Assembly: GCA_016873515.1 (NCBI GenBank)
Contig: VGXB01000001.1
Location: forward strand, 62,001-126,000
Length of the DNA: 64,000 nt
From: Nitrospira sp.
GTDB lineage: Bacteria; Nitrospirota; Nitrospiria; Nitrospirales; Nitrospiraceae
Direction of reading: 5' to 3'
The notes beneath the pieces were generated by a model. The model had not been told where the DNA came from. It saw only the letters and a list, made by a program, of their open reading frames with translations, and searched no databases. The position numbers were made by a program, and so were the translations under genes. Below are positions 21,587 through 49,196 of the stretch, piece after piece (positions within the stretch are counted from its first letter, which is position 1; each line of letters opens with the position of its first letter).

Positions 21587-22285
21587 ATGGCACCGAAAGC
21601 TGGACGAAGCCGGACACGTGAATTCTCAAGCCTCAGCGCGTCGATCGTGACGACGCTGAAGGATCAGATCGTCCAGTGGCGATATCCTCCGGAGTATCGC
21701 ATGACCGAGGCAGAGCTATGTAAGCAGTTCGGCGTCAGCCGTAGCCCCGTGCGTGAAGCCTTGCGGATACTGGCAACGGATGGGTTTGTGCAGAGGATGC
21801 CCAACCGAAGTTACCGAGTAAAGCAACATAACCTTCAAGAGATCGAGGAGCTCTACGATGTCCGGTTGGCGTTGGAACTGTTTGTCGTTGAACAGCTGGC
21901 CAACCGGAGTGCGCCTGGCCATGACGATATCGCCGCGCTCAAGCGCACATGGACCAGCGTGTTGAACGGCTTGCCCAGAAAGGATGAGGAGCTCGCCAGG
22001 CTGGACACACAGTTTCACGAAACACTCGCCCTGGCCGCAGGTAACAAAACGTTGTTGCGCCAGCTGCGCGCGATCAACGAACGCTTGATGCTGTTCCGCA
22101 TCATTGACTTTGCCAAGGCACACCGGGCAACGAGCACCTGCCGCCAGCACCTGGCTATCCTCACCTTCATTCTCGCTAAGAATAGCGCCGGCGCCCGCAA
22201 GGCCATGCAGAAAAATATCGAGGAGGGCCGGAACAATGTTCAGTCGGCAATCAAGGATGCATTAGCGAGGGCGTATTCATTGTAG
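21587..22285 (+). CDS. GntR family (FCD) transcriptional regulator
   Basis: wHTH LKDQIVQWRYPPEYRMTEAELCKQFGVSRSPVREALRILATDGFVQRMPNR plus FCD-type C-terminal domain. Confidence 0.92.
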   Translation: MAPKAGRSRTREFSSLSASIVTTLKDQIVQWRYPPEYRMTEAELCKQFGVSRSPVREALRILATDGFVQRMPNRSYRVKQHNLQEIEELYDVRLALELFVVEQLANRSAPGHDDIAALKRTWTSVLNGLPRKDEELARLDTQFHETLALAAGNKTLLRQLRAINERLMLFRIIDFAKAHRATSTCRQHLAILTFILAKNSAGARKAMQKNIEEGRNNVQSAIKDALARAYSL

Positions 22286-22354
22286 TGTGCGGATCTGCCG
22301 CGCTGCGTTGACGCAGGGCGCGCAGCATGCGCACAGATAGTCGAAAGGGGCTCG

Positions 22355-23254
22355 ATGCGTCTCTATGCTCTTTCAGCCGGGATTGAGGCGTCGACCGAGC
22401 GTTTCAGCGGGATTGTGCACAGCGTGTTCGTTCGAGCCTGCAATATCAGGCTTGAGACCGGCGCCCTGCTGACCCTGGTGTCTTCAGAAAAGCCCAACCT
22501 GCCCAATGGGCTGCGCATCGAAACACCGGCCCACTTCGCCTTTCCCGACTTTGTCCGCGTGGGAGAACCGGTTGCCTGTCGAGGAGGAACCGTCCGATTC
22601 GCACGGTCCGCTCTTTCTATCGATCTACGGACAGCCGTGTCTTGGAATATCGACCTCAACGGATTACGGATCGATCTTCACCGGCAGAATCAGGCTACAG
22701 CATGGACAGCCGCATGGAACACGCTGCGCCACCATCAGCGCGGGAATACGATGTTCGCGATGAGTGCGGCCTTGGCTGAGGGGGCCTGGGGCACCGTGTC
22801 TGCTCTCCTTGAAACAACTGCCGCGTTGCAATCGGAAGCGGCAGGCGCCGCCAGCGCGCCATTAATCGGGTTGGGGCCGGGTCTAACACCGGCCGGAGAT
22901 GATTTTCTGGTGGGGTACCTGGCCGGGCTGTGGAGCACAGCGGGCACTGACACTGCACGGCTGCGGTTTCTGGCATCGATGGGGCGTGGGCTGTCGGCAG
23001 CGGCCTCTCAGACCAATGTGATCAGTCACGCCTACATCCAATCCGCCGTCCGGGGATCTGCGTCAGAGTCGATCGCGCGGGTGGCGCAACAATTGGATCG
23101 GGCAGATGACATCGGCAGCGTCCGCGCGGCAACCCAGGCCGCCCTGCAGATCGGTCACAGCTCAGGGACCAACGGCGTGGCAGGATTGTTGTTCGGGTGT
23201 GCTGTCTGGACCCAGCCAGCAGTGCTGGCCTCTCGGTGCGTGGGAGGGGCGTGA
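22355..23254 (+). CDS. DUF2877 protein (AllH/YlbF-like)
   Basis: GLGPGLTPAGDDFLVGYLAGLW signature; adjacent to FdrA/DUF1116/carbamate kinase genes. Confidence 0.85.
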   Translation: MRLYALSAGIEASTERFSGIVHSVFVRACNIRLETGALLTLVSSEKPNLPNGLRIETPAHFAFPDFVRVGEPVACRGGTVRFARSALSIDLRTAVSWNIDLNGLRIDLHRQNQATAWTAAWNTLRHHQRGNTMFAMSAALAEGAWGTVSALLETTAALQSEAAGAASAPLIGLGPGLTPAGDDFLVGYLAGLWSTAGTDTARLRFLASMGRGLSAAASQTNVISHAYIQSAVRGSASESIARVAQQLDRADDIGSVRAATQAALQIGHSSGTNGVAGLLFGCAVWTQPAVLASRCVGGA

Positions 23255-23262
23255 GCTTGACT

Positions 23263-23272
23263 TTGTATACAA
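23263..23272. promoter_or_regulatory. Putative second GntR/FCD operator (TTGTATACAA)
   Basis: Identical 10-bp core to the site at 21538..21547; lies 9 nt after the DUF2877 stop. Confidence 0.55.
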
Positions 23273-23370
23273 TTATGTGTTCAATAAAGCCACCGGACAC
23301 ACCCGCGAGGCTGGTGCGATGATCACCAGTTTAGAAGTGCATCAACAATTACTCGTATGGAGATTGCGGC

Positions 23371-23715
23371 ATGACCCACGAAGCTATTTACGCACTATAT
23401 CCGCAAGTTGTTAAAATCTTTGATTCAACAGGGGCGTTTGATAAAGACGGCAACAAGGTTGAGATTGACTTAGCCGCCGTAAACGCATGGCAAGACCCAA
23501 GCGCTTACAAAGCTAAACGCGCCGCGCCCTATCCATCAGCGACTGACTATCTGGACGGCATCGTGAAGAACGATCACGCGCAGATCGACAAATACAGTGC
23601 GGACTGTCGCGCCGTGAAAGCGAAATATCCCAAAGTTGGAACGGCTGCGGTGCGAGGTGCCGCGTTCGCGAACAGGGGGGGAGGGGTCGCGAGGGGACGG
23701 TCACCGCATAATTGA
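23371..23715 (+). other. Phage-like ORF (tail-associated/XkdW-type C-terminal motif)
   Basis: MTHEAIYALYPQVVKIFDSTGAFDKDGNKVEIDLAAVNAW...AYKAKRAAPYPSATDYLDGIV...AVKAKYPK resembles small proteins common in tailed phages; locally lower GC than flanks. Confidence 0.5.
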
Positions 23716-23794
23716 CCGGCGGGACATCTCACCCGCCCAAGGCAGCGCGCCCGACACCGTCCATGGCGCGAACCATCGAGGGAAGGCCGCAGAA

Positions 23795-25345
23795 ATGGCC
23801 CGGGCGACTAAAGTGATCCGTAATTTCTATCATGATTCGGTCTCGCTCATGCAGCTCTCCTCCATGTTCGCCCAATTGCCCGGCGTGGAGCAGGCCGCAG
23901 CCATCATGGCCTCTGCAAACAACATCAATCTGCTCAAGGAAGCGGGCCTGGTGGCCGGAACCGTCGAGGCCGGTGCCAATGATTTGCTGATCGCGCTACA
24001 AGGCAGCGCTGAGGCACTCGATGCCGCCCTCGCCGCAGCCGAATCGACGCTGAAGCAGTCTGCTTCTACGGCCGGACAAGGAACATCCCGCACGATCGCT
24101 CCTCGCAGTCTTGAAATGGGTCTTGCGAATATGGTCGAGGGGAACCTCGCCGTGATTTCCACGCCGGGCGAATACGCTGCGGCCGAAGCATTCAAGGCGT
24201 TGCGCCTTGGCCTCCACGTGATGCTCTTCAGCGACAATGTTCAGTTGCAGGATGAAATCGCATTGAAACAGTTCGCACGGGACCGCGACCTGATCGTCAT
24301 GGGGCCCGAGTGCGGAACCGCCGTCATCAATGGCGTTCCGCTCGCGTTCGCCAACGTCGTCACGCGCGGAACGATCGGCGTTGTAGCTGCGTCGGGGACC
24401 GGTCTCCAACAGGTCATCTGCTTGATCGATCGATGGGGCCAGGGCATCTCACAAGCGATTGGCACAGGTAGCCATGACCTCCATAGAGCGGTCGGCGGGA
24501 TTTCCATGCTGCAGGGTCTCAAAGCCCTGGCTGCCGATCGATCCACCTCGGTGATCGTGCTCATCTCCAAGCCCCCGGACTCCGAAGTGGCAGAGCATGT
24601 CCTTGAGGCGGCGGGCAAAGCCGGAAAGCCGGTGGTGGTGAACTTTCTGGGGGCGGACCCTGCGCGCATCAGACGACCAAATGTGTTTCCCGCCGACACG
24701 CTGGAAGATGCCGCGAAGGCAGCGGTCGCACTCGCCGAGGGCAGACCGCCTGATCCAGCGCAGCCCGCCGGCTTCTTGCACGCGGTCCCATTCACCTGTA
24801 CCCCCGGCCAGCGCTATATTCGAGGTCTTTATAGCGGGGGAACATTCTGCTATGAAGCTTCGCTCCTCCTGAAGAAGAACGTGGGGCGGATTTATTCCAA
24901 CACTCCGGTGGAACCGGCAGACCGATTGCACGATGGATGGACCAGCCGGGAACATACGGTCATCGATCTGGGAGACGATCGCTTCACCAGAGGGCGCCCG
25001 CATCCCATGATCGATCATCGGCTGCGCAATGAACGCATTCTAAAAGAAGCGGCGGATCCGCAAGTGGCGGTGATCGTATTGGACATCGTGCTCGGCTATG
25101 GGTCGCATCCTGACCCGGCCGGCGAACTGGCGCCGGTGCTTCATCAGGCCACGGGCTTGGCCAGGAAGGCCGGCAGACAGTTGGCCGTGATCGGGTTTGT
25201 GTGCGGGACAGCATCAGACCCGCAAGGGTTGTCCACACAGGAAGACACGTTGCGGGGGGCAGGCATGATCCTGGCCGAGAGCAATGCGCAAGCGGTGCGC
25301 ATGGCCGCCGCCGTAGTGGCTGGCCAAACTGGAATGTCCTCATGA
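23795..25345 (+). CDS. FdrA-like acyl-CoA synthetase-fold protein (AllF-like carbamoyltransferase subunit)
   Basis: Likely ATG 23795; VIRNFYHDSVSLMQLSSMFAQLPGVEQAAAIMAS, GGTFCYEASLLL, FTRGRPHPMIDHRLRNERI. Confidence 0.88.
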   Translation: MARATKVIRNFYHDSVSLMQLSSMFAQLPGVEQAAAIMASANNINLLKEAGLVAGTVEAGANDLLIALQGSAEALDAALAAAESTLKQSASTAGQGTSRTIAPRSLEMGLANMVEGNLAVISTPGEYAAAEAFKALRLGLHVMLFSDNVQLQDEIALKQFARDRDLIVMGPECGTAVINGVPLAFANVVTRGTIGVVAASGTGLQQVICLIDRWGQGISQAIGTGSHDLHRAVGGISMLQGLKALAADRSTSVIVLISKPPDSEVAEHVLEAAGKAGKPVVVNFLGADPARIRRPNVFPADTLEDAAKAAVALAEGRPPDPAQPAGFLHAVPFTCTPGQRYIRGLYSGGTFCYEASLLLKKNVGRIYSNTPVEPADRLHDGWTSREHTVIDLGDDRFTRGRPHPMIDHRLRNERILKEAADPQVAVIVLDIVLGYGSHPDPAGELAPVLHQATGLARKAGRQLAVIGFVCGTASDPQGLSTQEDTLRGAGMILAESNAQAVRMAAAVVAGQTGMSS

Positions 25346-26757
25346 TGCAGACGTTGTTTCAGGAAAAGCTGCACGTGTTAAACGTCGGGCTGGCGTCCTT
25401 CGCGGAATCGATCGTCAAGGCAGGGGGGACAGCGCTACAGATCGAATGGGCTCCGCCAGCTCAGGGACAACAGAACGTTGCTCGCGCCCTGGCCCAGCTG
25501 GTGAACCGTCCTTCCGTCGAAGCAGCCAACCGAACGGCCTTCGACTTGTATCAATCGTCTCAACCGATTCTTCGGGACATCGGCATCGCAAGCGAGATGC
25601 TCCCCAACATGGGCAACCGCATGATTCTGCACGGCGGCCCTCCCATCGCCTGGCAGAACATGTGCGGCCCCATGAAGGGCGCCATTCTCGGCGCCATTCT
25701 CTATGAAGGGTGGGCGAAGGATACGGCCGGCGCAACGGCCTTGGCTGCTGGCGGCGACATTGTCTTTGAACCGTGCCACCACCACGCTGCCGTGGGGCCC
25801 ATGGCCGGCGTGATCAGCCCATCCATGCCGGTTTGGATGGTCGTCGATACGGCGCATAATCGTCCCTCGTTCAGCAATTTCAACGAAGGACTCGGACAGG
25901 TGCTCAGATTCGGCGCCAATGGTCCGGATGTGATCGACCGGCTCAGATGGATAGAACAGACGCTCGCGCCGACCCTGCGGGCCGGGATAGAGATCCTTGG
26001 CGGCATCGATCTCAAGCCCTTGATGGCGCAGGCCCTACACATGGGCGACGAAGTGCATAATCGCAATGTCGCGGCATCGTCTCTGTTGCTCAAGCGGCTG
26101 ATCACGGCGCTCTTAAAAACACAGGCGTCGTCGCCCGACATTGCCGCAGCCGTGGACTTCGTCGCCGGAAACGATCACTTCTTTTTGAATCTCTCCATGG
26201 CTGCGTGCAAAGCCATGCTCGATGCCGCTCAAGGCGTCCCCGGTAGCAGCATGGTCACGGCGATGGCGCGCAATGGCGTCGAATTTGGCATCCGCGTCAG
26301 CGGCATGGGAGAACGCTGGTTCACCGCGCCGGCGCCGATCGTAGACGGACTCTTTTTCCCCGGCTTCACGATGGCGGACGCGGCGCCGGATTTGGGAGAC
26401 AGCGCGATCACTGAGACGGCCGGTGTCGGCGGCTTTGCCATGGCAGCGGCCCCGGCCATCGTCAAGTTCGTCGGCGGCGCGCCGCAGGATGCGATCGACA
26501 ATACCATGGCGATGGCCCACATCACGATCGGCTGCAATGAGGCGTTTACGCTGCCGCCGATGAATTTCGCCGGGTCGCCGGCTGGAATTGACATTCGCAA
26601 AGTCGTCGATACGGGCATTCTGCCGATCATCAATACGGGAATCGCCCATCGTGAGGCGGGCGTTGGGCAGATCGGAGCCGGTATCACTCGGGCTCCCTTG
26701 GCCTGTTTCACACAGGCCGTGTCCGCACTGGCAGCGCGCGTCTGCGGTACTCGGTAA
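25342..26757 (+). CDS. DUF1116 protein (AllG/YlbE-like carbamoyltransferase subunit)
   Basis: ATGA overlap with fdrA stop; ILHGGPPIAWQNMCGPMKGAILGAILYEGWA, GGIDLKPLMAQALHMGDEVHNRN. Confidence 0.88.
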   Translation: MMQTLFQEKLHVLNVGLASFAESIVKAGGTALQIEWAPPAQGQQNVARALAQLVNRPSVEAANRTAFDLYQSSQPILRDIGIASEMLPNMGNRMILHGGPPIAWQNMCGPMKGAILGAILYEGWAKDTAGATALAAGGDIVFEPCHHHAAVGPMAGVISPSMPVWMVVDTAHNRPSFSNFNEGLGQVLRFGANGPDVIDRLRWIEQTLAPTLRAGIEILGGIDLKPLMAQALHMGDEVHNRNVAASSLLLKRLITALLKTQASSPDIAAAVDFVAGNDHFFLNLSMAACKAMLDAAQGVPGSSMVTAMARNGVEFGIRVSGMGERWFTAPAPIVDGLFFPGFTMADAAPDLGDSAITETAGVGGFAMAAAPAIVKFVGGAPQDAIDNTMAMAHITIGCNEAFTLPPMNFAGSPAGIDIRKVVDTGILPIINTGIAHREAGVGQIGAGITRAPLACFTQAVSALAARVCGTR

Positions 26758-26768
26758 TCGCAAAGGAA

Positions 26769-27755
26769 ATGACCATGGAACATACCCACAAACTCGCTGT
26801 GGTCGCAGTCGGGGGCAATGCGTTAATCCGAGACAAACACCACGAATCGATTCCCGATCAAAGCCGCGAAGCGGCTCGCACCGTCCATCACATCGTGGAC
26901 ATGATTGTGGCTGGATGGAACGTGGTGATCACCCACGGAAGTGGTCCGCAGGTCGGATTCATTCTGCGCCGCTCAGAGTTGGCGTTGGAAGAAGTCCCTC
27001 CCGTACCGATGGATTATGCTGATGCGGACCTGCAGGGGGGGATCGGATACATGTTTCTGAAAGCCCTCTATAACGAATTTCGCATGCAGAAGCTCGATCG
27101 GAAAGCCGTGGCGATCGTCACGCAAACCTTGGTCGACCAGCATGACCCGGCATTTGCCGACCCCTCCAAGCCGATCGGATCGCAGATGGACGAACAGACT
27201 GCGCACCGACTCGCATCCCGCCAAGGGTGGACGGTCAAGGAGGACGCCGGACGCGGGTGGCGCCGAGTAGTGCCGTCGCCGTTGCCAACGGCGATCGTCG
27301 AACTGGCGGCTATCCAAACACTGGTGCGCGCGGGATTCGTCGTTATTGCCTGCGGCGGCGGGGGCATCCCTGTGATTGACAACGAAGAAGGAGGATTGAC
27401 TGGGGTCGAAGCGGTTATCGACAAAGACCTGGCATCAAGTCTCCTCGCCCGTGGTATCGGTGCCGATTTGTTGGTGATCTCTACGGGAGTCGAGAAGGTG
27501 GCCATCAATTTCAACAGACCGAATCAGCAATGGCTGGATCGCATGACTCTCGACGACGCGAAGCGCCATCTTGCAGACAACCAATTCGACAAGGGCAGCA
27601 TGGGGCCGAAGATTCAGGCAATCATCGAATTTTTGGAAGGAGGTGGACGCGCGGGTTTGATCACCGATCCGCCCAATATCGGTCGGGCGCTAGCTGGCAA
27701 GACAGGGACGTTCATCATACGGGATGGAGCGGCACCGCGCACATTCCCCAACTAA
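26769..27755 (+). CDS. Carbamate kinase
   Basis: VVAVGGNALIRDKHHESIPDQ, THGSGPQVGFILRRSELA, CGGGGIPVIDNEEGGLTGVEAVIDKDLASSLLA. Confidence 0.95.
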   Translation: MTMEHTHKLAVVAVGGNALIRDKHHESIPDQSREAARTVHHIVDMIVAGWNVVITHGSGPQVGFILRRSELALEEVPPVPMDYADADLQGGIGYMFLKALYNEFRMQKLDRKAVAIVTQTLVDQHDPAFADPSKPIGSQMDEQTAHRLASRQGWTVKEDAGRGWRRVVPSPLPTAIVELAAIQTLVRAGFVVIACGGGGIPVIDNEEGGLTGVEAVIDKDLASSLLARGIGADLLVISTGVEKVAINFNRPNQQWLDRMTLDDAKRHLADNQFDKGSMGPKIQAIIEFLEGGGRAGLITDPPNIGRALAGKTGTFIIRDGAAPRTFPN

Positions 27756-27764
27756 GGAGGACCT

Positions 27765-28898
27765 ATGTCTACATCAAACAAACTCACCCGGCGCCAGCTT
27801 CTTACAGGAACCGCGGCGGCCGGCGCGCTGGGACTGTGGGGTGGCTTGCCCTGGCCCGACCGAGCCTGGGGAGCGGATAAGGTCAAGATGGGATTCATCT
27901 TCGTCGGACCGCGAGACGACTATGGCTACAACCAGGCCCATTTTGAGGGGAAATCGGCGGTGGCCAAGCTCGACTGGGTGAAGGCCTTCGATGAAGAAAA
28001 AGTGCCTGAGACCATCGAGGTCCAAAAAACCATGGAAAGCATGGTCAAGCTGGACGGCGCCCAGGTTCTCTTTCCAACATCATTTGGGTATTTCGACCCG
28101 CACATTCTCAAAGTCGCGCCCCAATTTCCCAACATCCAGTTTCTTCATTGCGGCGGGCTCTATCAAGAAGGCAAACATCCCCAAAACGTCGGGAGTTACT
28201 TTGGCTACATCGATGAATCGCAGTATGTGGCCGGCATCGTAGCCGGGGGGATGAGCAAAAGTGGGAAGTTGGGATTCGTGGCGGCGAAGCCGATTCCGCA
28301 AGTCTTGCGCAATATCAACAACTATACACTTGGCGCCCGTAGCATCAAACCCAACACAACGGTCAATGTGATCTTCACCGGCGACTGGTCATTGCCGGTC
28401 CGCGAAGCGGAAGCAACCAATAGTTTGGTTGACCAAGGGATCGATGTCATTACCTGCCATGTCGACAGCCCTAAGGTCGTCATCACGACGGCCGAAAAGC
28501 GTGGCATCTATTGCACCGGGTATCACTGCAACCAATCCAAGCTTGCCCCTAAAGGGTATCTCACAGGTGCAGAATGGAACTGGGCCAAGGTCTACATGGA
28601 TTATGCCGAGTTGATCCGCAACAGACAGCCGATTCCTCACCTCGTACGAGGCGGCTTGAAGCAAGGACTTGTGAAGGTCTCGGAGTATCATCAAATCGTG
28701 CCCGGAGCCGTTCGTAATCAAGCCGAGGCGGCAAAGGCAAAATTCATGAGCGGCTCGATGGTCGTGTATAAAGGACCGATCAAAGACAATACGGGCCGCG
28801 TCGTCATCGCAGCTGGGAAGGAACATGTCCAGACGGATATCTGGCTGGAAAGTATGGATTGGCTGGTGGAAGGAGTCGTCGGCTCAACCAAGTCATGA
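27765..28898 (+). CDS. BMP-family ABC transporter substrate-binding protein, Tat-type signal
   Basis: TRRQLLTGTAAAGALG signal; VKMGFIFVGPRDDYGYNQAHFEGKSAV BMP/PnrA-like fold. Confidence 0.9.
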   Translation: MSTSNKLTRRQLLTGTAAAGALGLWGGLPWPDRAWGADKVKMGFIFVGPRDDYGYNQAHFEGKSAVAKLDWVKAFDEEKVPETIEVQKTMESMVKLDGAQVLFPTSFGYFDPHILKVAPQFPNIQFLHCGGLYQEGKHPQNVGSYFGYIDESQYVAGIVAGGMSKSGKLGFVAAKPIPQVLRNINNYTLGARSIKPNTTVNVIFTGDWSLPVREAEATNSLVDQGIDVITCHVDSPKVVITTAEKRGIYCTGYHCNQSKLAPKGYLTGAEWNWAKVYMDYAELIRNRQPIPHLVRGGLKQGLVKVSEYHQIVPGAVRNQAEAAKAKFMSGSMVVYKGPIKDNTGRVVIAAGKEHVQTDIWLESMDWLVEGVVGSTKS

Positions 28899-29959
28899 GC
28901 AAAGGTATACCGCATGCTCTGAATAAGGTGGTGGAGCCGTTCCTCATCATCGTCGGGTCCTTGTCGATCTCGATGATGCTGTTCGGCGCTTTTGTCGCCG
29001 CGGCGGGAGCAAATCCGTTCGAGGTCTATCAGACGATGTACCGGGCTGCGTTCGGAACATCGTTTTCGTGGCAAAACACGCTGATTCGAGCAGCGCCGTT
29101 GATGCTGACGGCCCTCTGTACGGCGCTTCCCGGTTATCTGGGGCTGATTATCATCGGTGGAGAGGGGGCCGTGGTCATGGGCGGCCTCTTCGCGGCCATC
29201 GTGGCCCTGACCATGCCCAACGCCCCTCCCATGGTCGTCCTGACAACCATGGCGCTCGCCGGCATGGCGGCCGGCGCGATCTGGCTCGCCATCGGCGGGG
29301 CGCTGCGGCACTATCGCGCCGTAAATGAGACGATCAGTAGCCTGTTACTGAATTATATCGCGATTGCACTGTTGAACCACCTCGTTACCAGTACATTTCG
29401 AGATTCGGAGAGTCTCAATCATCCCTCGACGCATCATATCGGAGAGGCCAATATGATCGGCCTCATTCCCGGAACGGACCTCCATTGGGGATTGGTATTC
29501 GGCATCGTGGCCTGCGTCCTCTCGTGGTTTCTCATGCACCACACGGTCTTCGGTTTTGCATCTCAAATCGCAGGGGGCAATGTGCGCGCCGCCCAAATCG
29601 CGGGGTTGCCTGTTGGGCGGTTGATTCTCATCGTGTGCTGCGTGGCCGGAGCGGCCGGCGGGTTGGCGGGCATGGTGGAAGTCGCGGCCATCCACGGCAG
29701 AGCCAACGATACGCTCAACGCCAACTACGGCTATGCCGGCATTCTCGTCGCGTTCGTCGCGCGGAACAATCCGCTGGCCATCATACCGGTCGCCGTGCTG
29801 TTGGGGGGAATCCGAGCGAGCAGCGGATTGTTGCAGCGCGCTCATGAGCTTCCGGATGCGACCGTACTCGTCATGCAGGGCATCATCTTCCTCGTCATTT
29901 TGTTTAGCGAAACGCTCTACGGCCGCTTTTCTCGCATGCCGAAGCAAGGAGCCGTATGA
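28895..29959 (+). CDS. ABC transporter permease (BMP-type importer)
   Basis: Polytopic membrane protein; ATGA overlap with upstream SBP gene. Confidence 0.9.
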   Translation: MSKGIPHALNKVVEPFLIIVGSLSISMMLFGAFVAAAGANPFEVYQTMYRAAFGTSFSWQNTLIRAAPLMLTALCTALPGYLGLIIIGGEGAVVMGGLFAAIVALTMPNAPPMVVLTTMALAGMAAGAIWLAIGGALRHYRAVNETISSLLLNYIAIALLNHLVTSTFRDSESLNHPSTHHIGEANMIGLIPGTDLHWGLVFGIVACVLSWFLMHHTVFGFASQIAGGNVRAAQIAGLPVGRLILIVCCVAGAAGGLAGMVEVAAIHGRANDTLNANYGYAGILVAFVARNNPLAIIPVAVLLGGIRASSGLLQRAHELPDATVLVMQGIIFLVILFSETLYGRFSRMPKQGAV

Positions 29960-30876
29960 TGGATGTCGGTTGGTGGGGCGTACTCATCGCGGTTCTCGGA
30001 GGAGCGATTCGAATCGGTACTCCGTTTCTCTTCGTCTCGCTGGGTGAATGCCTGACGGAGAAAAGTGGCCGCATCAATTTGGGCCTTGAAGGCACGCTGG
30101 TCATGGGCGCGATGACGGGCTATGCCGTTTCACTGCACAGTGGGTCTCCCTGGTTGGGAGTGCTGTGTGCTGGATTGGCCGGCATGACGCTCGGCGCCTT
30201 GCACAGTTGGCTGTGCAGCTTCAAACGCGTGAACGATATTGCCGTTGGGATCGCGATGATGCTGTTTGGCACCGGACTGGCGTTCTTTCTCGGGAAGCCA
30301 TACATCCAACCATCTGCGCCTCGGCTGCCGTCCATCGACCTCGGCGCATGGAGCGATATTCCGCAACTTCAGGCGGCCCTCCAAATCAATGCATTGTTCT
30401 TGATAGGAATCGTTGTGGCGGTTGTACTCGCCTGGATGTTGAAGCACACGGCCTGGGGGCTCAAGGTCCGGGTCGTCGGCGAAAGCGCGGATGCGGCGCG
30501 TGCCCTTGGCCTACCGGTCCATCGCATCCGTATCCTCAGCACGGCCCAGGGGGGATTCTTAGCAGGGATCGGAGGGTCATATTTGTCCCTCTACTATCCG
30601 TTCAACTGGAGTGAAGGCCTATCGAGCGGACAGGGACTGATGGCGGTGGCCCTCGTCATCTTCGCGCGTTGGCACCCGATAGGCTGTCTTTGGGTCTCGC
30701 TGTTGTGGGGAGGGGCCGCCGCACTGGGACCGTCCTTACAATCCGTCGGCATCACCGGGGGCTACTACATTTTCAACGCGATTCCGTACATCATGACTTT
30801 GGCCGTGATGATCATCACCTGTTCGCCCAAACGTACGCTTGTCGGAGTACCCCATGACCTGACGGTCAGTCGGTAG
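29956..30876 (+). CDS. ABC transporter permease (BMP-type importer)
   Basis: GTPFLFVSLGECLTEKSGRINLGLEGTLVMGAMTGY, classical BMP-importer permease motif. Confidence 0.92.
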   Translation: MMDVGWWGVLIAVLGGAIRIGTPFLFVSLGECLTEKSGRINLGLEGTLVMGAMTGYAVSLHSGSPWLGVLCAGLAGMTLGALHSWLCSFKRVNDIAVGIAMMLFGTGLAFFLGKPYIQPSAPRLPSIDLGAWSDIPQLQAALQINALFLIGIVVAVVLAWMLKHTAWGLKVRVVGESADAARALGLPVHRIRILSTAQGGFLAGIGGSYLSLYYPFNWSEGLSSGQGLMAVALVIFARWHPIGCLWVSLLWGGAAALGPSLQSVGITGGYYIFNAIPYIMTLAVMIITCSPKRTLVGVPHDLTVSR

Positions 30877-30936
30877 GCAATCAGGATGATCGGGACTTGA
30901 ATAAACCTTAATCCAGAAATCGATGAGAGGTGTACT

Positions 30937-31617
30937 ATGACGCGATATATCGCATCCGACCCCTACCCCTATCCCTATAACGGCGATCTCCGGCCGGACA
31001 ACTCGGTTTTTCTCATTATCGATATGCAGACCGACTTTTGCGGCAAAGGCGGCTATGTCGACAAGATGGGCTATGACATTTCGCTTACTCGCGCACCGAT
31101 CGCGCATATCCTCAAAGTGCTGTCGCTAGCACGAGCCATCGGTATGCATGTGTTTCACACCAGAGAGGGACATAGGCCCGACCTGTCGGATTTGCCAGAT
31201 AACAAGCGCTGGCGGAGCCGCCGCATCGGAGCCGGAATTGGTGATCCGGGTCCTTGCGGCAAGATACTGGTACGGGGCGAGCCCGGCTGGGACATCATTC
31301 CGGAATTGGCTCCGAAGGTGGGCGAACCGATCATCGATAAGCCCGGCAAGGGCTCGTTCTGGGCGACCGATTTGGAAATGTTGTTGCGGCTCCGTGGCAT
31401 CCAGAATGTGCTCTTGGCAGGCATCACCACCGATGTCTGTGTCCACACCACGATGCGGGAAGCCAACGATCGGGGCTTCGAATGTCTCCTGCTGGAAGAC
31501 TGTTGCGGGGCGACTGATTACACAAACCATCAGGCCGCGCTCAAGATGATCAAGATGCAGGGCGGTGTATTCGGCGCCGTGGCAAAATCGGACGCCTTAC
31601 TGGAAGCCTTGTCATGA
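30937..31617 (+). CDS. biuH: Isochorismatase-fold amidohydrolase, probable biuret amidohydrolase
   Basis: [83 protein letters not shown]; strongly reminiscent of characterised BiuH with Asp/Lys/Cys triad intact. Confidence 0.75.
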
Positions 31618-33137
31618 TCGACGGAGTTCCTCCGGATCTACACGCCTGTGGGATTACCAAACACTTCGGCCCGCTCACCGCCTTGCAGGCGGTCAATCTT
31701 CAATTGCGGTCCGGCCAGTTTCATGCCCTGCTCGGCGAGAACGGGGCGGGCAAAAGCACATTAGTCAAATGCATCATGGGGTATTATCACCCCGATGAGG
31801 GGACAATTTCGCTCAATCACGAGACGGTTTCGATACGGAGCCCGCGCGACGCACAGACTTTTGGCATCGGGATGGTCTATCAGCAATTTACGCTGATCCC
31901 CAACATGACGGTGTTGGAGAACCTGGTAATCTCCAGGGCGAGATTGGACCCTCTCATCGATTGGGAAAAGGAAGAGCGTCAATTGGCGGAGTTCATGGAG
32001 AACATGCCGTTTCAGGTGTCGCTCACCGCTCGTGTCAGCTCGCTTGCCGCGGGTGAAAAACAAAAAGTGGAGATCCTTAAGCAACTCGCGCTGCAGAACC
32101 GCATTCTGATTTTAGACGAACCGACGTCCGTGCTGACTCCACAGGAAGCCGATGAGATGTTGGGATACCTTCGAGCCCTGACGCTGGGCCAGCGATTGAG
32201 CGTTCTGATCATTACGCATAAACTGCGAGAAGTCGCAGCCTTCGCGGACGAAGTGACGGTGTTGCGGAAGGGGCAATTCGTAGGAACTGGAAATGTCTCG
32301 CAGCTGACCGTCTCGCAGATGGCGGAAATGATGGTGGGGTCTGAGGTTACGGTCAAGCCGAAACAGCGAAACGTGCAGTCGAGCAAAGTCCCCAAGCTGG
32401 TCCTACGGGATATCCGTGTCAAAGATGAGAGCGGCGTGGAAGTCGTTCGGGGCGTGCACCTCACCATCCATGAAGGCGAGATCGTCGGGATTGCCGGCGT
32501 ATCAGGGAACGGACAACGAGAACTAGTCGAAGTGTTGGCAGGGCAACGCTGTGCTAGTGCGGGCACAATCCACGCGCATGATCAACTCTACCAGCCGACG
32601 CGAGAGAAGATCATGAAACACAAAATGTTCTGTCTTCCCGAAGAACCGCTCCAGAACACGTGTGTCGGGCGGATGAGCGTGGCGGAGAACCTGGCATTTC
32701 GCCACTTTGATATCGAACCCTACGTGGTGGGCGGGTGGTTCATCAGTCGCCCTGCGCTACGGCGCGGCGCGACCGAACTCATTGAGCGGTACAACATCAA
32801 ACCGCCTTATCCCGATATGCCGATCCAGTCTCTCTCGGGCGGCAATGTCCAGCGAGCAGTCTTGGCCCGGGAACTGTCGGCTGATGTTGAGATTTTGATC
32901 ATCGCCAACCCCTGTGTCGGGTTGGACTTTCTGGCGATGGAGGAAATTCGTCAACGAATCGTCGCCGCGCGCAATCACGGGACGGCGGTGCTTCTGGTCA
33001 GCGAAGACCTCGACGAGATCATGGAACTCTCCGACCGGACAGTGGTGATGTTCAACGGTCAACTCGTGTATGAAACCACGTCGTCCGACGCAGATCTGGG
33101 GATCATTGGACGGCACATGACAGGACATACAACATGA
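31614..33137 (+). CDS. ABC transporter ATP-binding protein with two ABC domains (BMP/sugar type)
   Basis: Walker [30 protein letters not shown], second domain [16 protein letters not shown] and [15 protein letters not shown]; 4-nt overlaps with both neighbours. Confidence 0.93.
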
Positions 33138-33832
33138 ATACTGTAGGGGCTTCGCCATCGCCCTACCCGTTGCCACCGCAAAACTCCGGTGCGCACGTGG
33201 CGCTGGTGGTCATCGATATGCAGCGCGATTTCGTAGAGCCGGGCGGCTTCGGCGCCGCGCTGGGCAACAAGGTTGAACTCTTGCAAACGATCGTGCCGAC
33301 GGTCTTGAAACTCCTCAAGACGTTTCGGGAGTTGGGATTGCCTGTGATTCATACACGAGAAGGCCATCGCCCTGACTTGTCGGATTGCCCGCCGGCAAAG
33401 AAACGGCGTGGAGACGCGACATTGCGCATCGGCGATCCAGGCCCTATGGGACGCATTCTGATATTGGGCGAACCGGGAAACGACATCATCCCGCAATTGC
33501 GCCCCGAAGTCGGCGAACTCGTCATCGACAAGCCAGGCAAGGGGGCTTTTTACGCTACCGATCTTCAAGAGCGCCTGAAAGCCCTCCGTGTTACCCATCT
33601 CGTGTTCACCGGCGTCACGACTGAGGTCTGCGTGCAGACTAGCATGAGAGAAGCCAACGACCGCGGGTACGAATGCCTCTTGGTTGAAGATGGAACCGAA
33701 AGTTATTTTCCGGAATTCAAGCAGGCGACGGTCCGAATGATCCAATCACAGGGGGGCATTGTCGGGTGGGTGACCACTGCGGATCGTCTTATCGCGTCTC
33801 TCCGGCAGACCTACGCGGGGGGTGCCGCATGA
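33134..33832 (+). CDS. Second isochorismatase-fold cysteine hydrolase (candidate triuret/ureide hydrolase)
   Basis: [65 protein letters not shown]; substrate motif differs from the first paralogue. Confidence 0.8.
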
Positions 33833-34224
33833 GCGAGGGCGATGTGCTGCTTGCCATCAACGGCACGCTGATGCGCGGGCTCAAGCTCAATCCCAACATG
33901 GTGGCAGCCAATGCCACGTTCGTTCGAGAGACGAAGACCGAAGCGGCGTATCGGCTCTGGACGGTGAACAACGAACACCCTGCGATGCTGCGTGTGACGG
34001 GTGGAACTGGGGTCAAGGTTGCAGTCGAAGTTTGGTCGGTCCCCTCTGCCGGACTGGTGGGGATCCTACTGAACGAACCGCCCGGTCTATGCATCGGCAA
34101 AGTGCGGTTGGAAGACGGCAGTACTGTTCTGGGTGTACTGGGAGAACCTGCGCTCGTCGAAGGGCACCAAGAGATCACCGAGTACGGCGGTTGGCGGGCG
34201 TATCTGGCGCAGGGCGCACGATAG
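33829..34224 (+). CDS. Stand-alone allophanate hydrolase C-terminal-like (AH_C / gamma-glutamylcyclotransferase-like) protein
   Basis: [40 protein letters not shown]...[18 protein letters not shown] resembles AtzF C-terminal domain; 4-nt overlap with upstream gene. Confidence 0.72.
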
Positions 34225-40637: not shown

Positions 40638-41636
40638 TTGCCAAAGGTATTCTGCGGAGTTTGGGCCACAGGTTTGGTAGCCTTGTGGTTAGCTGCGGTG
40701 CCATCTTCCGATGCGTGTGCTCAAGAGGAGTGTGGAACGATGAAGCGGCGGCAGCAAGGCATTCTGACCGGCATGCCGTTTATGACGCATGTATCGGTAC
40801 GTTCGTTCGTGGACGATACTGGGCGAAAGCTGTCGCTCGCGAAGACGCCGGTCCGCATTGTATCGCTGGCACCCAGTATCACGGAAATGTTGTTTGCGAT
40901 CGGAGCCGGCGCTCAAGTCGCCGGCGTCACGCAATTTTGTGATTTTCCTCCTGACGTCTCAACGAAACCCAAAATCGGCTACGCGAATCCGAATCTGGAA
41001 TCGCTGGTCGCGCTGCAACCGGATTTGGTTCTGGCGCCGAAAGAATTTCTCAAGTCGGACCTGCTTGCGTCGCTCGACAATCTGCGTATTCCGCTCTTCA
41101 TCTTCTCCGGCCAGACGGTTGAGGATATTTTCTCGCACATTCAGTTGATCGGCCGAATGACCGACCACCAGGCCGAGGCAGCCGCGCTGGCGGTGGAGAT
41201 GCGGAGGCAGATCGCCACCGTCACGCAACGGGTGCAAGGGCAGCCGCCGGTGCGGGTGCTCTATGTCTTGAACAGTCAGCCGCTGATCACAGTGGGGCCC
41301 GGCAGTTTCATCGATCAGCTCATTGGGCTCGCCGGCGGCCTCAATGTCGCAGCCCCAAGCGCTGTGCCCTACCCTCGCTTGAGTATGGAAACCGTGCTGG
41401 CGGAAGACCCGGAAGTGTTGATGTTTCCGGTGGGGCCGGCCGAAGGAATATCTGAAAGTGAGCAGCAGGCCTGGTGGCAGTGGTCCAGCCTGTCGGCGAT
41501 CAAACACGCGCGGACCCATCAAATTCCGGCGGATCTGCTGAATCGCCCGGGGCCGAGAATCGGTCAGGCGTTGGAGCACCTGGCGACCCTTCTGCATCCA
41601 TCCCGTTCCAGATCGGCTCTGAGCGGGAGGCCGTGA
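40638..41636 (+). CDS. btuF: Cobalamin/cobinamide ABC transporter substrate-binding protein
   Basis: TTG start gives a signal peptide; RIVSLAPSITEMLFAIGAGAQVAGVTQFCDFPP. Confidence 0.88.
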   Translation: MPKVFCGVWATGLVALWLAAVPSSDACAQEECGTMKRRQQGILTGMPFMTHVSVRSFVDDTGRKLSLAKTPVRIVSLAPSITEMLFAIGAGAQVAGVTQFCDFPPDVSTKPKIGYANPNLESLVALQPDLVLAPKEFLKSDLLASLDNLRIPLFIFSGQTVEDIFSHIQLIGRMTDHQAEAAALAVEMRRQIATVTQRVQGQPPVRVLYVLNSQPLITVGPGSFIDQLIGLAGGLNVAAPSAVPYPRLSMETVLAEDPEVLMFPVGPAEGISESEQQAWWQWSSLSAIKHARTHQIPADLLNRPGPRIGQALEHLATLLHPSRSRSALSGRP

Positions 41637-41639
41637 CCC

Positions 41640-42782
41640 ATGCCCAATGGACAGGCCGCTCCTCTTTCTTCGACTGCAAGCGGAGGGTCTCTCTCTGACT
41701 CGGCTGTGCAGTCCGCTGTGGTCGGATGGGCCAGGTCCGGTGCGATCTTAACGAGCCGCCGGCGATGGCTTGTGCTGATTGGGTTGCTGGTGGCTTCTGT
41801 CGTCGTGATGTGCTTCTGCAGCGGGTTTGGCGCGGCGAAGCTATCGAGCCGCGATCTACTGGCGGCGATTGGGTCACTATTGACTACCGGCCGCATCGAC
41901 GGTGCCGTGGACGACACGGTGGGTGCCATTCTGTTTCAGGTGAGGCTGCCGCGCGTGCTGATGGGCTTTCTCGTCGGCGGCACGTTGGCGATCGTGGGGG
42001 CCACGCTGCAAGCGCTCCTGCGCAACGCATTGGCCGATCCCTATGTCCTGGGCGTGTCGAGTGGGGCAGCGTTAGGGGTGGCCCTGGCGATGCTGCTGGG
42101 TATGGGAACGATATGGGTGGTGGTGCCGGTATTACCCTTGTGGGGATTTGCCGGCGGTGTGACAGCGTTGATGCTTATTTATCGGTTGGCGCAATCGCAT
42201 GGCCACTTGCCGATTCACAGCCTGTTGCTGGCCGGAGTGATTCTCAATGCCATGCTCACGGCGGTAATTATGTTCATCACCTCTATCATGGACCCGGCCC
42301 GTTCCACCGGGCTCATCATGTGGCTTATGGGGTCGTTGACGCCTCCGAGTTGGGTCAACTTGATCGGCATCGCGCTCTATGTGACGGCCGGTACGCTGGT
42401 GTTGCTGTATCAAGCACCGGCGTTGAATGTCCTGACACAGGGTGAAGACACGGCACGGTCGTTGGGGATCAATACGGAAGGGCTCAAGCGGCGGCTGTAC
42501 GTGCTGACAGCCTTATTGACGGGAGCGGTCGTAGCCGTCAGCGGCATGATCGGATTTATCGGCATGGTCATTCCCCACGCCGTGCGGATGGCCATTGGCT
42601 CGGATCACCGGCTGCTGATGCCGGCTTCAGCCTTCGTGGGCGGCATGTTCTTGGTTTTGTCGGATACGGTGGCACGGACGGCCTTCGCGCCGGCGGAAAT
42701 ACCCGTCGGCGTGGTGACGGCGCTGGCCGGAGGCCCAGTTTTTCTTTATCTCTTATTATGGCGAAAAGATCGGATGACATAG
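41640..42782 (+). CDS. btuC: FecCD/BtuC-type ABC permease
   Basis: LPRVLMGFLVGGTLAIVGATLQALLRNALADPYVLGVSSGAALG. Confidence 0.93.
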   Translation: MPNGQAAPLSSTASGGSLSDSAVQSAVVGWARSGAILTSRRRWLVLIGLLVASVVVMCFCSGFGAAKLSSRDLLAAIGSLLTTGRIDGAVDDTVGAILFQVRLPRVLMGFLVGGTLAIVGATLQALLRNALADPYVLGVSSGAALGVALAMLLGMGTIWVVVPVLPLWGFAGGVTALMLIYRLAQSHGHLPIHSLLLAGVILNAMLTAVIMFITSIMDPARSTGLIMWLMGSLTPPSWVNLIGIALYVTAGTLVLLYQAPALNVLTQGEDTARSLGINTEGLKRRLYVLTALLTGAVVAVSGMIGFIGMVIPHAVRMAIGSDHRLLMPASAFVGGMFLVLSDTVARTAFAPAEIPVGVVTALAGGPVFLYLLLWRKDRMT

Positions 42783-43646
42783 ATGCCGACGCCGCTACGA
42801 TCTGAATCGGACACCGCATACATGCCAACGGATTCAGCACTCACTGCTGAAGAGATCTCCTTCCGCTACAGCCCGTTCCAGTCCGGCCGTCCATGGACAA
42901 TCGAGCAGGCCACTTTCAGCGTTGCGCCCGGACAAGTGCTGGGAATTGTCGGACCGAATGGGTCGGGTAAGTCCTCGATGCTGAAATTGCTGGCCGGGCT
43001 GTTGCGTCCTGAATCCGGAACCATTCGGCTGACTGGACGGGCCCTCAAGGATCTGACCGCACTCGAGATCGCTAAGACTCTGGCCATGGTTCCGCAGGAA
43101 CAGGCTTTGGTGTTTCCCTTCACTGTTGCAGAGACGGTATTGATGGGCCGGTTTCCCCATCGGCAGACCGGGTGGTGGAGTGCGGAGATGGGGGTTGAGC
43201 GAGGGGAGGATCTTGTGGCGGCGCACCAAGCGATGGCTGAGACCGATGTGCTCGATCTGGCCGATCGGCTTGTATCGGAATTGTCCGGTGGAGAACGACA
43301 GCGCGTCATGATTGCGCGGGCCCTGGCGCAGGCGCCGCGCATCCTGTTGCTCGATGAGCCGACGGCGTTTCTCGATCTCAATCATCAGGTCGAGCTGTGT
43401 GCGTTAATTCAGCGGTTGGCGAAAGAGCGATCACTGACGGTTGTGCTGGTGTCGCACGATTTGAACGTGGCGAGCCTGCTCTGCGATCGTCTCCTGATGG
43501 TGAAGGATGGAAAGATTTGTGCGCAAGGGACGCCGGTTGAGACCATTCGCCCGGAGGTATTACGGGCCGTCTACGGATGCGCTGTCGTGGTCGATGCTCA
43601 TCCGCAGCGCGGTGTGCCACGGGTCACGCTAGGCGTCATGCAATGA
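42783..43646 (+). CDS. btuD: BtuD-type ABC ATPase
   Basis: GIVGPNGSGKSSMLKLLAGLL, LSGGERQRVMIARALAQAPRILLLDEPTAFLD. Confidence 0.92.
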   Translation: MPTPLRSESDTAYMPTDSALTAEEISFRYSPFQSGRPWTIEQATFSVAPGQVLGIVGPNGSGKSSMLKLLAGLLRPESGTIRLTGRALKDLTALEIAKTLAMVPQEQALVFPFTVAETVLMGRFPHRQTGWWSAEMGVERGEDLVAAHQAMAETDVLDLADRLVSELSGGERQRVMIARALAQAPRILLLDEPTAFLDLNHQVELCALIQRLAKERSLTVVLVSHDLNVASLLCDRLLMVKDGKICAQGTPVETIRPEVLRAVYGCAVVVDAHPQRGVPRVTLGVMQ

Positions 43647-43719
43647 ATCAGGCTCGGCGGCGAAGTCCCCAGCTGCTGGTCTATGTGCGCGACAGGGGAT
43701 GATTTCAATCAGGAGAAAC

Positions 43720-43985
43720 TCGAATGTAGGAGAAGCACTGCCGGTGACGGGGAAGATGGTGCAAGTCCATCACGGTGCCGCCACTGTAAGCGGGGAGTGT
43801 TCTTCAAGGTAGGCCACTGCTTGGACGTGATTCGTCAACCGTCAAGCGTCAATCGTAAACAGGATGCCGGACATACCACGGATTCTGCGATTGACCAATG
43901 ACGAATGGCGAATGACGAAGATCGGGAAGGCGGAAGAACGCGGCGATCCGTAAGTCAGGAGACCCAACCGACGGGAACCAATCGC
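43720..43985 (+). promoter_or_regulatory. Cobalamin riboswitch 2 (upstream of btuB-like gene)
   Basis: GGTGCAAGTCCATCACGGTGCCGCCACTGTAAGCGGGGAG, AAGGTAGGCCACTG, GTAAGTCAGGAGACC. Confidence 0.9.
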
Positions 43986-44011
43986 ACCCTTCGAGTCAAA
44001 GGGAGATCGTT

Positions 44012-46063
44012 ATGCATCGTGTGTACCGGTGTTGGGTATTTGTTTGTGCCGTCAGTATCTTCGCTGCGTGTGTGCAGTGCGCTCATCCAGCCGCATTTGC
44101 TCAAGATATCGCCAAGGCTGATCAACAGCAGACCGTCGAGACCCCTGAGGTCGTCGTGAGCGCGACGAAAACCCCCGTATTGGCTAAGCAAGCCAGCAGT
44201 GCTGTCGAGATCATCACGGGCGAGGAATTGGAGAAAAGGAAAATCAAATCCGTTATCGACGGGTTGCGCCTGTCGTCAGGTGTCTTTGCCACGTCAAGCG
44301 GTGGACCCGGTGCGACTGCCAACGTGAAGATGCGCGGGGCCTTCGCGCGGCATACGCTGGTTATGATCGATGGCGTCATCGTGAACAGTCCCACGACCGG
44401 TGATTATGATTTTGCCAATCTCACGGCGGAAAATATCGATCGCATCGAGATTCTTCGTGGGGCCCAGAGTATGCTCTACGGTTCCGATGCCATCGGTGGC
44501 GTGATCAACATTTTTACCAAGAAGGGAACCAGCAAGCCGACGGTCGGTGCGTTCATGGAGTATGGCTCGTTCGCGACATTTCGCGAAGGAGGAAATATTT
44601 CAGGAGCCAAAGGTCCATTGGACTTTTCAGTTTCGGCATCGCGCTGGGATACCAGTAACTTCTCCGCGATCAATTATCGCCGAGGCGCATTTGAAGGAGA
44701 CGGCTTCCACAATACACAGGTTTCGGCAAAAGTGGGCGCGGCACTCCCCAACGATGGTCGCGTAGAGTTCAATATGCGCTGGTACGATTCTCGAACCAGC
44801 TTCGACGGCTTCGCGGACAGCGGCGCGCCGGCGGACATCTTCGGGGGTCGACACACAAATCGCAATCTTATTCTCAACGGCGCATGGACGCAGCCGTTGA
44901 CGACATGGTGGACTACGAAACTCACGTTGTCCCAGGCCAACGAACGTTTGCGGAGTAACAGTGGAAATGCCGGCTTTAATCTGAGCACGCGGCAGTTCAT
45001 TCAGGCCAATCCGAATTCTTGCTGGGATGACACGTGTTTCACCTCATTTTCCACCGATCTTGAAATCCTCAATCGACGTTTGGAGTGGCAGAATGACTTT
45101 CGCGTCGGAGAGGTATTGCTGCTGACAGCGGGGTATCAATTGAGAAGGGAAGCAGGTGATAATCCTAGTGCATTTGGAGGAGCACAGCCGGCTCGTACCA
45201 TTTCGTCGAATGCCGGATTCGTTCAGGGACAGGTCAACTTGTGGGATCGCCTGTTCTTTACGGCAGGGGGGCGCCATGACCAGTACAATGCCTTTGAAGA
45301 CGCCACGACCTATCGCGTGACAGGGGGATATCACATCAAGGAAACTGAGACCAGGTTCAGAGGAAGTTACGCCACTGGGTTCAAAGCTCCGACGCTGAAC
45401 GATCTGTATTATGAAGGGTTCGGCAATCCTAATCTGAAGCCTGAGAAAAGTCTCAGTATGGATCTTGGAGTCGAACAGGCTCTTTTCAATGGACGGCTGC
45501 AACTCACTGCGGGCTATTTTTGGAATCGGTTTCAGAACTTGATTCAGTTTACTTCTAGTTCCCCACCATGTCCGCCAACGGCCTTTTTGGGGTACTGCCC
45601 AATTAATGTTGCGGATGCTAAAACACAGGGATGGGAGTTCGGGTTCAAAGTGGAACTCCTCAAAGGGCTGGAGGTGCGGGGTCAGTACACCCACACGCTA
45701 ACGCGCGCGTTTGATACGGCGGCGTTACCGGTTCGATTGGGGGGAGATAAACGACTTCCTCGTTGGCCAGTTGATCAGGCGAGTGTCGGGCTTAGTTATC
45801 AGCCGCTGGATTCTGTGCGGCTCTCCATCGATTATCGGTTCGTGGGAGCGAGGCAGAACACATTGTCCAATTCGCGGAGTCAACAGCTCGGAGTTTTCAA
45901 CCTCGTCAATCTTTCGGCCTCGTATGACGTGACTAAGAATTGGCAGACGTACGTGCGTGTTGATAATCTCTTCAATGAGAAATATGAGGAGGTTACCTTC
46001 TACGGCACCCCGTCACGTTCAGTGTTCGGGGGGGTGCGGATGAACTACGACATACCGCTCTGA
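44012..46063 (+). CDS. btuB: TonB-dependent outer-membrane receptor, BtuB-like
   Basis: TonB-box/plug region TPEVVVSATKTPVLAKQASSAVEIITGEEL...; C-terminal beta-barrel; directly downstream of cobalamin riboswitch. Confidence 0.9.
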   Translation: MHRVYRCWVFVCAVSIFAACVQCAHPAAFAQDIAKADQQQTVETPEVVVSATKTPVLAKQASSAVEIITGEELEKRKIKSVIDGLRLSSGVFATSSGGPGATANVKMRGAFARHTLVMIDGVIVNSPTTGDYDFANLTAENIDRIEILRGAQSMLYGSDAIGGVINIFTKKGTSKPTVGAFMEYGSFATFREGGNISGAKGPLDFSVSASRWDTSNFSAINYRRGAFEGDGFHNTQVSAKVGAALPNDGRVEFNMRWYDSRTSFDGFADSGAPADIFGGRHTNRNLILNGAWTQPLTTWWTTKLTLSQANERLRSNSGNAGFNLSTRQFIQANPNSCWDDTCFTSFSTDLEILNRRLEWQNDFRVGEVLLLTAGYQLRREAGDNPSAFGGAQPARTISSNAGFVQGQVNLWDRLFFTAGGRHDQYNAFEDATTYRVTGGYHIKETETRFRGSYATGFKAPTLNDLYYEGFGNPNLKPEKSLSMDLGVEQALFNGRLQLTAGYFWNRFQNLIQFTSSSPPCPPTAFLGYCPINVADAKTQGWEFGFKVELLKGLEVRGQYTHTLTRAFDTAALPVRLGGDKRLPRWPVDQASVGLSYQPLDSVRLSIDYRFVGARQNTLSNSRSQQLGVFNLVNLSASYDVTKNWQTYVRVDNLFNEKYEEVTFYGTPSRSVFGGVRMNYDIPL

Positions 46064-46074
46064 GGGGGAGCAGC

Positions 46075-46287
46075 ATGCGGGGATCCGCTCAGAAGATCTG
46101 CGAGCAGTGCGGCCAGGCCTTTGAGTGCGTGGGATACCAGTGTTGGTGTGGTCAGGCTGGAATTACTGAGTCCCAGATGGATTGGATTGCCGCACGGTAT
46201 AAGGATTGTCTGTGTCAGACCTGTCTGGAGCAAGTTGCAATGGGTAACCTGGGGCCACAGTCGCTGCTGCCGATTCACCCCCTTTAA
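46075..46287 (+). CDS. Cysteine-rich CWC-family small protein
   Basis: CEQCGQAFECVGYQCWCGQAGI...DCLCQTCLEQV. Confidence 0.75.
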   Translation: MRGSAQKICEQCGQAFECVGYQCWCGQAGITESQMDWIAARYKDCLCQTCLEQVAMGNLGPQSLLPIHPL

Positions 46288-46301
46288 GCTGAGTGGATGG
46301 G

Positions 46302-49192: not shown

Positions 49193-49196
49193 TCAC

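Follow-up and report, generated by a model that had tools for sequence, protein, structure and literature searches.

The window analyzed here is a 64,000-nucleotide stretch of a Nitrospira genome (contig VGXB01000001.1), and it carries an operon in which genes for the three subunits of an AllFGH complex and for a carbamate kinase (AllK) accompany genes for a predicted triuret hydrolase (TrtA) and a biuret hydrolase (BiuH). In Escherichia coli, AllFGH is an acylurea-type transcarbamylase that interconverts oxalurate and phosphate with oxamate and carbamoyl phosphate (PMC11326118). Oxalurate itself arises from purine breakdown. From the comparison of genes and loci, we consider it quite probable that the AllFGH of the window works in a pathway of 1-carboxybiuret, biuret and allophanate and not on oxalurate. 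The original prediction had proposed that such a complex might act on allophanate or biuret; its move from oxalurate to biuret-family acylureas is strongly, though indirectly, supported by a separate AllG clade, by the partners TrtA, BiuH and AtzD, and by the lack of the allophanate hydrolase AtzF, while its choice of substrate is revised below. More broadly, there appears to be a widespread pathway, which we regard as fairly likely, that breaks down triuret and cyanuric acid by phosphorolysis with a yield of ATP, made up of this AllFGH clade, carbamate kinase and a new enzyme family (AH_C-like), and reaching from comammox Nitrospira to mycobacteria and at least a quarter of E. coli.

AllFGH and carbamate kinase genes lie beside predicted triuret and biuret hydrolase genes

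The central genes are as follows (positions in the window; all operon genes are on the + strand):

22355-23254, +: AllH, third AllFGH subunit (PF11392, E=1.5e-24; 26-28% identity to E. coli homologues)
23795-25345, +: AllF, FdrA-like (PRK06091 FdrA, 499.9 bits vs a cut-off of 433; PDB 3dmy, E=2e-86)
25345-26757, +: AllG, DUF1116 (PF06545, E=1e-96; PDB 3clq, E=7e-123)
26769-27755, +: AllK, carbamate kinase, ATP from carbamoyl phosphate (PRK12352, 367.8 bits vs 266)
30937-31617, +: BiuH, biuret hydrolase, biuret to allophanate and NH3 (NF050097 equivalog, 405.8 vs 370; PDB 6azo, E=3e-118; residues Y/Y/D/V)
33134-33832, +: TrtA, predicted triuret hydrolase, triuret to 1-carboxybiuret and NH3 (best PDB match Herbaspirillum TrtA 6xix, E=6e-90)
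33829-34224, +: AH_C-like protein, a stand-alone relative of the allophanate-hydrolase C-terminal domain with no amidase (PF21986, E=1.5e-39; nearest solved relative 5c5z, likewise stand-alone)

The span 23795-27755, to which the original prediction refers, contains intact open reading frames (ORFs) for AllF, AllG and carbamate kinase with strong matches to these families, AllH lying outside it. The prediction also mentioned BiuH, which is confirmed, and overlooked TrtA and the stand-alone AH_C-like gene. Thus all three AllFGH subunit families and a carbamate kinase, the gene set of an oxamate transcarbamylase, are present. The kinase was assigned to its subfamily with PRK12352; its TIGR00746 score (353.9) falls slightly below the threshold of 358.25.

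It has been reported that TrtA uses a D24/K129/C162 catalytic triad and is discriminated by F35, N41, E160, Q202 and I205 (PMC7948467). In the window's protein D24, F29, F35, N41, K129, T158, E160, C162, Q202 and I205 are all conserved, and by these residues the gene at 33134-33832 is predicted to encode a triuret hydrolase, which would act on triuret and not on biuret. That this second isochorismatase-like hydrolase might be another BiuH was ruled out by the diagnostic residues and by its NF050097 score (257.7 vs 370). The BiuH gene itself passes that equivalog model and carries the BiuH residues YYDV.

The original prediction stated that the window encodes no amidase domain of allophanate hydrolase, and this is the case. 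A genome-wide search, which it had suggested, returned a single PF01425 match, GatA on another contig (641.8 bits vs 481), and no AtzF elsewhere in the window's genome. The genome (1.98 Mb, 83 contigs, 99.84% complete) has a gene for a subunit of ammonia monooxygenase, and its nearest relatives are Nitrospira metagenome-assembled genomes (MAGs); its host is therefore very probably a comammox Nitrospira. It also encodes urease.

The AllG subunit belongs to a clade associated with carboxybiuret-producing enzymes

We compared the window's AllG with the 80 loci most like it, with 50 loci from samples of 399 and 199 genomes, and with E. coli reference loci. Neighborhoods covered about 10 kb, several ended at contig ends, and gene calls outside annotated records were simple ORFs; an apparent gene absence in a draft genome may be false. 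In the resulting tree, a TrtA/AtzD clade with 89 leaves and a support of 0.96 includes the window; the yahEFG clade and the allantoin/oxalurate clade, which holds the characterized E. coli oxalurate enzyme, are separate from it. Among the 86 non-redundant loci of the TrtA/AtzD clade, TrtA was the partner in 62 and the AtzD family in 9; 15 had no partner (mostly contigs cut near AllG). No allantoin or ureidoglycolate gene was found near AllFGH in any of the 86, a search that did not extend to the window's whole genome. The TrtA signature residues are complete in all 62 TrtA copies, and the AtzD representatives that were scanned all scored above the cyanuric acid hydrolase equivalog cut-off (4/4).

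Because the 80 loci had been chosen by similarity to the window, we used the broader sample, not selected in this way, as a control (598 genomes, 50 AllG loci). Here TrtA adjoins AllG in 7/7 clade members and in 3/43 others (p=1.2e-6), and the AH_C-like gene does so in 7/7 vs 0/43 (p=1e-8), neither value being corrected for shared ancestry. Furthermore, the window's AllF shares 49.5% identity with the E. coli AllF linked to TrtA and 40.6% with the allantoin-linked one; the corresponding values for AllG are 62% and 50%. The alignment columns that separate window-type AllG and AllF from the allantoin type were listed as well; since the active site is not mapped and only four sequences represented the allantoin type, these columns are insufficient to assign specificity.

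These observations bear on the explanation that the window encodes an ordinary oxamate transcarbamylase acting on oxalurate released by other organisms, its triuret neighbors reflecting a grouping of purine-derived nitrogen sources. The homologous E. coli enzyme has measured oxamate/oxalurate activity (PMC11326118), and an oxalurate pathway has been proposed for comammox bacteria and ammonia-oxidizing archaea (PMC12625717). However, the window's AllG is in a different clade, whose loci carry TrtA or AtzD in 71 of 86 cases and allantoin genes in none. In addition, E. coli K-12 has separate AllFGH sets in other contexts, and a TrtA-linked AllG match (≥80% of the query covered) occurs in 1554 of 5426 complete E. 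coli genomes (~29%), a copy that would be redundant if it also served oxalurate. We therefore regard oxalurate as an improbable substrate.

In one such E. coli locus (L084, NZ_CP031215.1, 5816-14012) the order is TrtA, AllH, AllF, AllG, carbamate kinase, AH_C-like, cytosine permease and LysR. E. coli yahE-yahJ (L085, 5926-12508) is a third AllFGH-carbamate kinase set, with the amidohydrolase YahJ, and it forms its own clade. Two actinobacterial loci (L157, L160) have TrtA adjoining a divergent AllG without AllF. On a betaproteobacterial contig (L030, 2367-7421), a BiuH/TrtA/Nup operon lies beside another TrtA copy that is accompanied by AllHFGK; such a layout could be a forerunner of the hybrid operon of Nitrospira.

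The AH_C-like protein forms a family distinct from AtzF C-terminal domains

The AH_C-like ORF encodes 131 amino acids that match only positions 437-563 of TIGR02713, with no amidase-signature domain, and the operon copy is the sole AH_C domain in the window's genome. Within the clade, the domain stands alone in 40 loci, follows carbamate kinase in 15 and probably one more, and precedes TrtA in L064 and, in a second genome, L124. Examples of such fusions are carbamate kinase with AH_C-like at L043 (9394-10812; mycobacteria and others) and AH_C-like with TrtA at L064 (7357-8421; Cupriavidus). That the domain is joined both to TrtA and to carbamate kinase is a further argument against oxalurate as the substrate.

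AH_C-like domains form a group of their own, separate from the C-domains of AtzF. At the histidine position of the AtzF GAHL motif, 23/23 AtzF domains have H and 59/59 AH_C-like domains have L; the latter have invariant residues of their own (N11, T13, M15, H50 and E83). The possibility that the window's protein is a decayed relic of AtzF was rejected, since its relatives in this grouping are the AH_C-like proteins linked to AllFGHK rather than the AtzF C-domains. The AH_C-like family includes PDB 5c5z, which over the compared stretch is identical to the protein from the E. coli cluster. In AtzF, the C-domain decarboxylates N-carboxycarbamate, and by analogy the AH_C-like protein may perform similar chemistry on carboxybiuret or allophanate; such a decarboxylase-like role is uncertain because the site is changed relative to the AtzF C-domain.

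A phosphorolytic pathway is proposed for the operon

We infer the reactions of AllFGH and the AH_C-like protein to be part of the following scheme. The operon at 21587-34224 would import and degrade both triuret and biuret. TrtA would convert triuret to 1-carboxybiuret and ammonia; carboxybiuret would become biuret through loss of CO2, which may be spontaneous or enzymatic; and BiuH would turn biuret into allophanate and ammonia. AllFGH would move the carbamoyl group at the end of at least one of these acylureas onto phosphate, and AllK would use the resulting carbamoyl phosphate to make ATP and carbamate, the latter breaking down to CO2 and ammonia, the fuel of an ammonia oxidizer. The AH_C-like protein probably handles an N-carboxylate in this pathway, decarboxylating carboxybiuret or allophanate. 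A run in the opposite direction, in which AllFGHK would spend carbamoyl phosphate to make a carbamoylated compound for biosynthesis or storage, is highly improbable: the E. coli enzyme was indeed assayed in the carbamoylating direction (PMC11326118), but the importer, the hydrolases and the catabolic-type carbamate kinase of the operon indicate breakdown, and the product would have no evident use.

TrtA makes 1-carboxybiuret from triuret (PMC7948467), and AtzD makes it from cyanuric acid, after which it decays to biuret and CO2 (PMC6219798). Since the two partners share this product, the AllFGH of the clade very probably uses carboxybiuret or a derivative of it. Carboxybiuret (H2N-CO-NH-CO-NH-COO-) differs from oxalurate by an additional NH ahead of the carboxylate; of the other two candidates, allophanate is shorter and biuret is neutral. 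Our tentative choice for the general substrate of the clade is 1-carboxybiuret itself, giving carbamoyl phosphate and allophanate. It is favored as the direct product of both partners, as the compound that keeps the carboxylate, and as one from which allophanate is released, which would account for clusters of TrtA, AllFGHK and AtzF without BiuH (L025, L034).

We next consider the 26 genomes with a TrtA-type module, where BiuH was scored at ≥60% identity to the window's protein. Fourteen of them have neither BiuH nor a fused AtzF, and in these AllFGHK and the AH_C-like protein are the only candidates seen for the TrtA product, making AllFGH-AllK its obvious consumer. Consequently, allophanate made by BiuH does not hold as a clade-wide substrate.

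For this operon alone, the strict form of the original prediction, in which BiuH-made allophanate is the substrate and AllFGH with AllK replaces the AtzF amidase, is possible but doubtful. The Nitrospira loci are hybrids with the order BmpA-NupBC-BiuH-NupA-TrtA as in the AtzF-containing operons of other bacteria; at the position of AtzF, the window and four sister loci have AH_C-like, and L005 keeps a full AtzF. The window and its sisters thus combine BiuH and AH_C-like with no AtzF, and the window's genome would otherwise have no enzyme for allophanate. Yet L005 has AtzF alongside AllFGHK, most clade members have no nearby BiuH (only the Nitrospira loci and L030 have one), and the 14 genomes in which no BiuH was found would leave the clade unexplained. 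As the general substrate of the clade, allophanate (with carbamate as co-product) is unlikely, its chances being higher in Nitrospira, which has BiuH; as a second substrate in the window, with BiuH but no AtzF, it is plausible.

Biuret itself could instead be the substrate, phosphorolysis giving carbamoyl phosphate and urea for urease, with AH_C-like as a carboxybiuret decarboxylase in the role of the missing TrtB. The AH_C-like-TrtA fusions of L064 and L124 are what would be expected of an enzyme that takes the TrtA product, and urease is present in the window's genome. Urease co-occurrence, which might separate biuret from carboxybiuret, is mixed: where BiuH and AtzF are both missing (14 genomes), 8 have urease and 6 do not. 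Moreover, TrtA with AllFGHK and AtzF but no BiuH (L025, L034) fits a release of allophanate better than one of urea. We hold biuret to be rather unlikely as the substrate of the clade and retain 1-carboxybiuret as the tentative choice.

Several points weigh against the assignment of AllFGH to this pathway. No enzyme activity is known for the window's AllG clade, and genomic association does not tell which acylurea AllFGH uses; nor can specificity be read from sequence, because the substrate-binding residues of AllFGH are not known. AH_C-like is missing at nine AtzD loci, and five TrtA loci have neither it nor AtzF nearby, which implies that it is not essential. The idea that AllFGHK and AtzF exclude each other in TrtA neighborhoods, as proof of replacement, was rejected: none of 36 loci has both, which is not significant (p=0.16), and elsewhere L005, L034 and others carry both. 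Separately, many TrtA genes of Pseudomonadota (L186, L188-L198) have neither AtzF nor AllFGHK within ~9 kb, the one case inspected having a permease only; there may be a further route downstream of TrtA in these loci.

Regulator, transporter and other features of the window

The remaining operon genes are predicted to encode a regulator and an ABC transporter:

21587-22285, +: GntR/FCD transcriptional regulator, first operon gene (PF07729, E=5e-22; PF00392, E=4e-16)
27765-28898, +: BmpA-type substrate-binding protein of an ABC transporter (PF02608, E=4.5e-39)
28859-29959, +: NupB, ABC permease (PF02653, E=2e-28)
29956-30876, +: NupC, ABC permease (PF02653, E=8e-37)
31614-33137, +: NupA, ABC ATPase (PF00005, two stretches)

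The complete same-strand run is GntR, AllH, AllF, AllG, AllK, BmpA, NupB, NupC, BiuH, NupA, TrtA and AH_C-like, and the regulator holds the same position in other Nitrospira loci. Intergenic gaps are mostly below 70 bases or are overlaps; the real start of NupB is probably ~28 nt or more inside its ORF. Only allH and allF stand farther apart, by ~540 bases (23255-23794); in this interval a 114-residue ORF (23371-23715) matches the phage family phrog_9114 of unassigned function (E=2e-9) and is perhaps a phage gene remnant within the operon. Further along the window (40638-52748) we noted a cluster resembling corrinoid (vitamin B12) uptake and synthesis genes, with a TonB receptor, an ABC transporter, and CobT-, CobS- and CobD-like ORFs, the translations being judged by eye.

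Comparison with known systems

No link of AllFGH to triuret or carboxybiuret was found in the literature searched. The window shares with the AllFGH and AllK of E. coli allantoin degradation (PMC11326118) the three subunit families and the carbamate kinase partner, and acylurea-type chemistry is expected of both. It differs in its separate AllG clade (40-50% identity), in having no allantoin genes, and in its TrtA/AtzD and AH_C-like partners. At its N-terminus, AllG has a segment of ~50 residues without counterpart in E. coli AllG; this segment matches the C-terminal end of the FdrA profile. If the proposed function is correct, it would provide a testable role for a cluster that occurs on plasmids and in ~29% of complete E. 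coli genomes, and would explain the function of a protein family so far known by structure only (PDB 5c5z).

Triuret is present in human urine, and the TrtA-BiuH-AtzF pathway of Herbaspirillum and Rhizobium that degrades it has the Bmp/Nup transporter, BiuH and TrtA in the same order as the window (PMC7948467). The window has the amidase-less AH_C-like gene in place of full AtzF, and the AllHFGK cassette before the transporter. The AtzDGEHF cyanuric acid pathway of Pseudomonas sp. ADP likewise handles 1-carboxybiuret before it decays to biuret, but does so with the hydrolytic amidases AtzEG, AtzH and AtzF and yields neither carbamoyl phosphate nor ATP (PMC6219798). The routes known to release ammonia from triuret, biuret and cyanuric acid work by hydrolysis alone, and the energy of the cleaved bonds is lost; with a phosphorolytic branch, each molecule would yield at least one ATP in addition to ammonia, which is relevant to an ammonia-dependent organism.

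The same cluster has been described in the same group of organisms, as comammox biuH-trtA-'atzF'-allFGHK clusters, where allFGHK was taken for a distinct pathway of oxalurate degradation and atzF was listed as present (PMC12625717). Among the loci collected here, 'atzF' is AH_C-like only in 5 of 6 resolvable Nitrospira loci, including the window. Our analysis would, if correct, revise the published oxalurate reading for comammox, and it adds to that study the separate AllFGH clade, its exclusive tie to carboxybiuret producers, the AH_C-like family with its fusions, and the amidase-less 'atzF' of most comammox loci seen.

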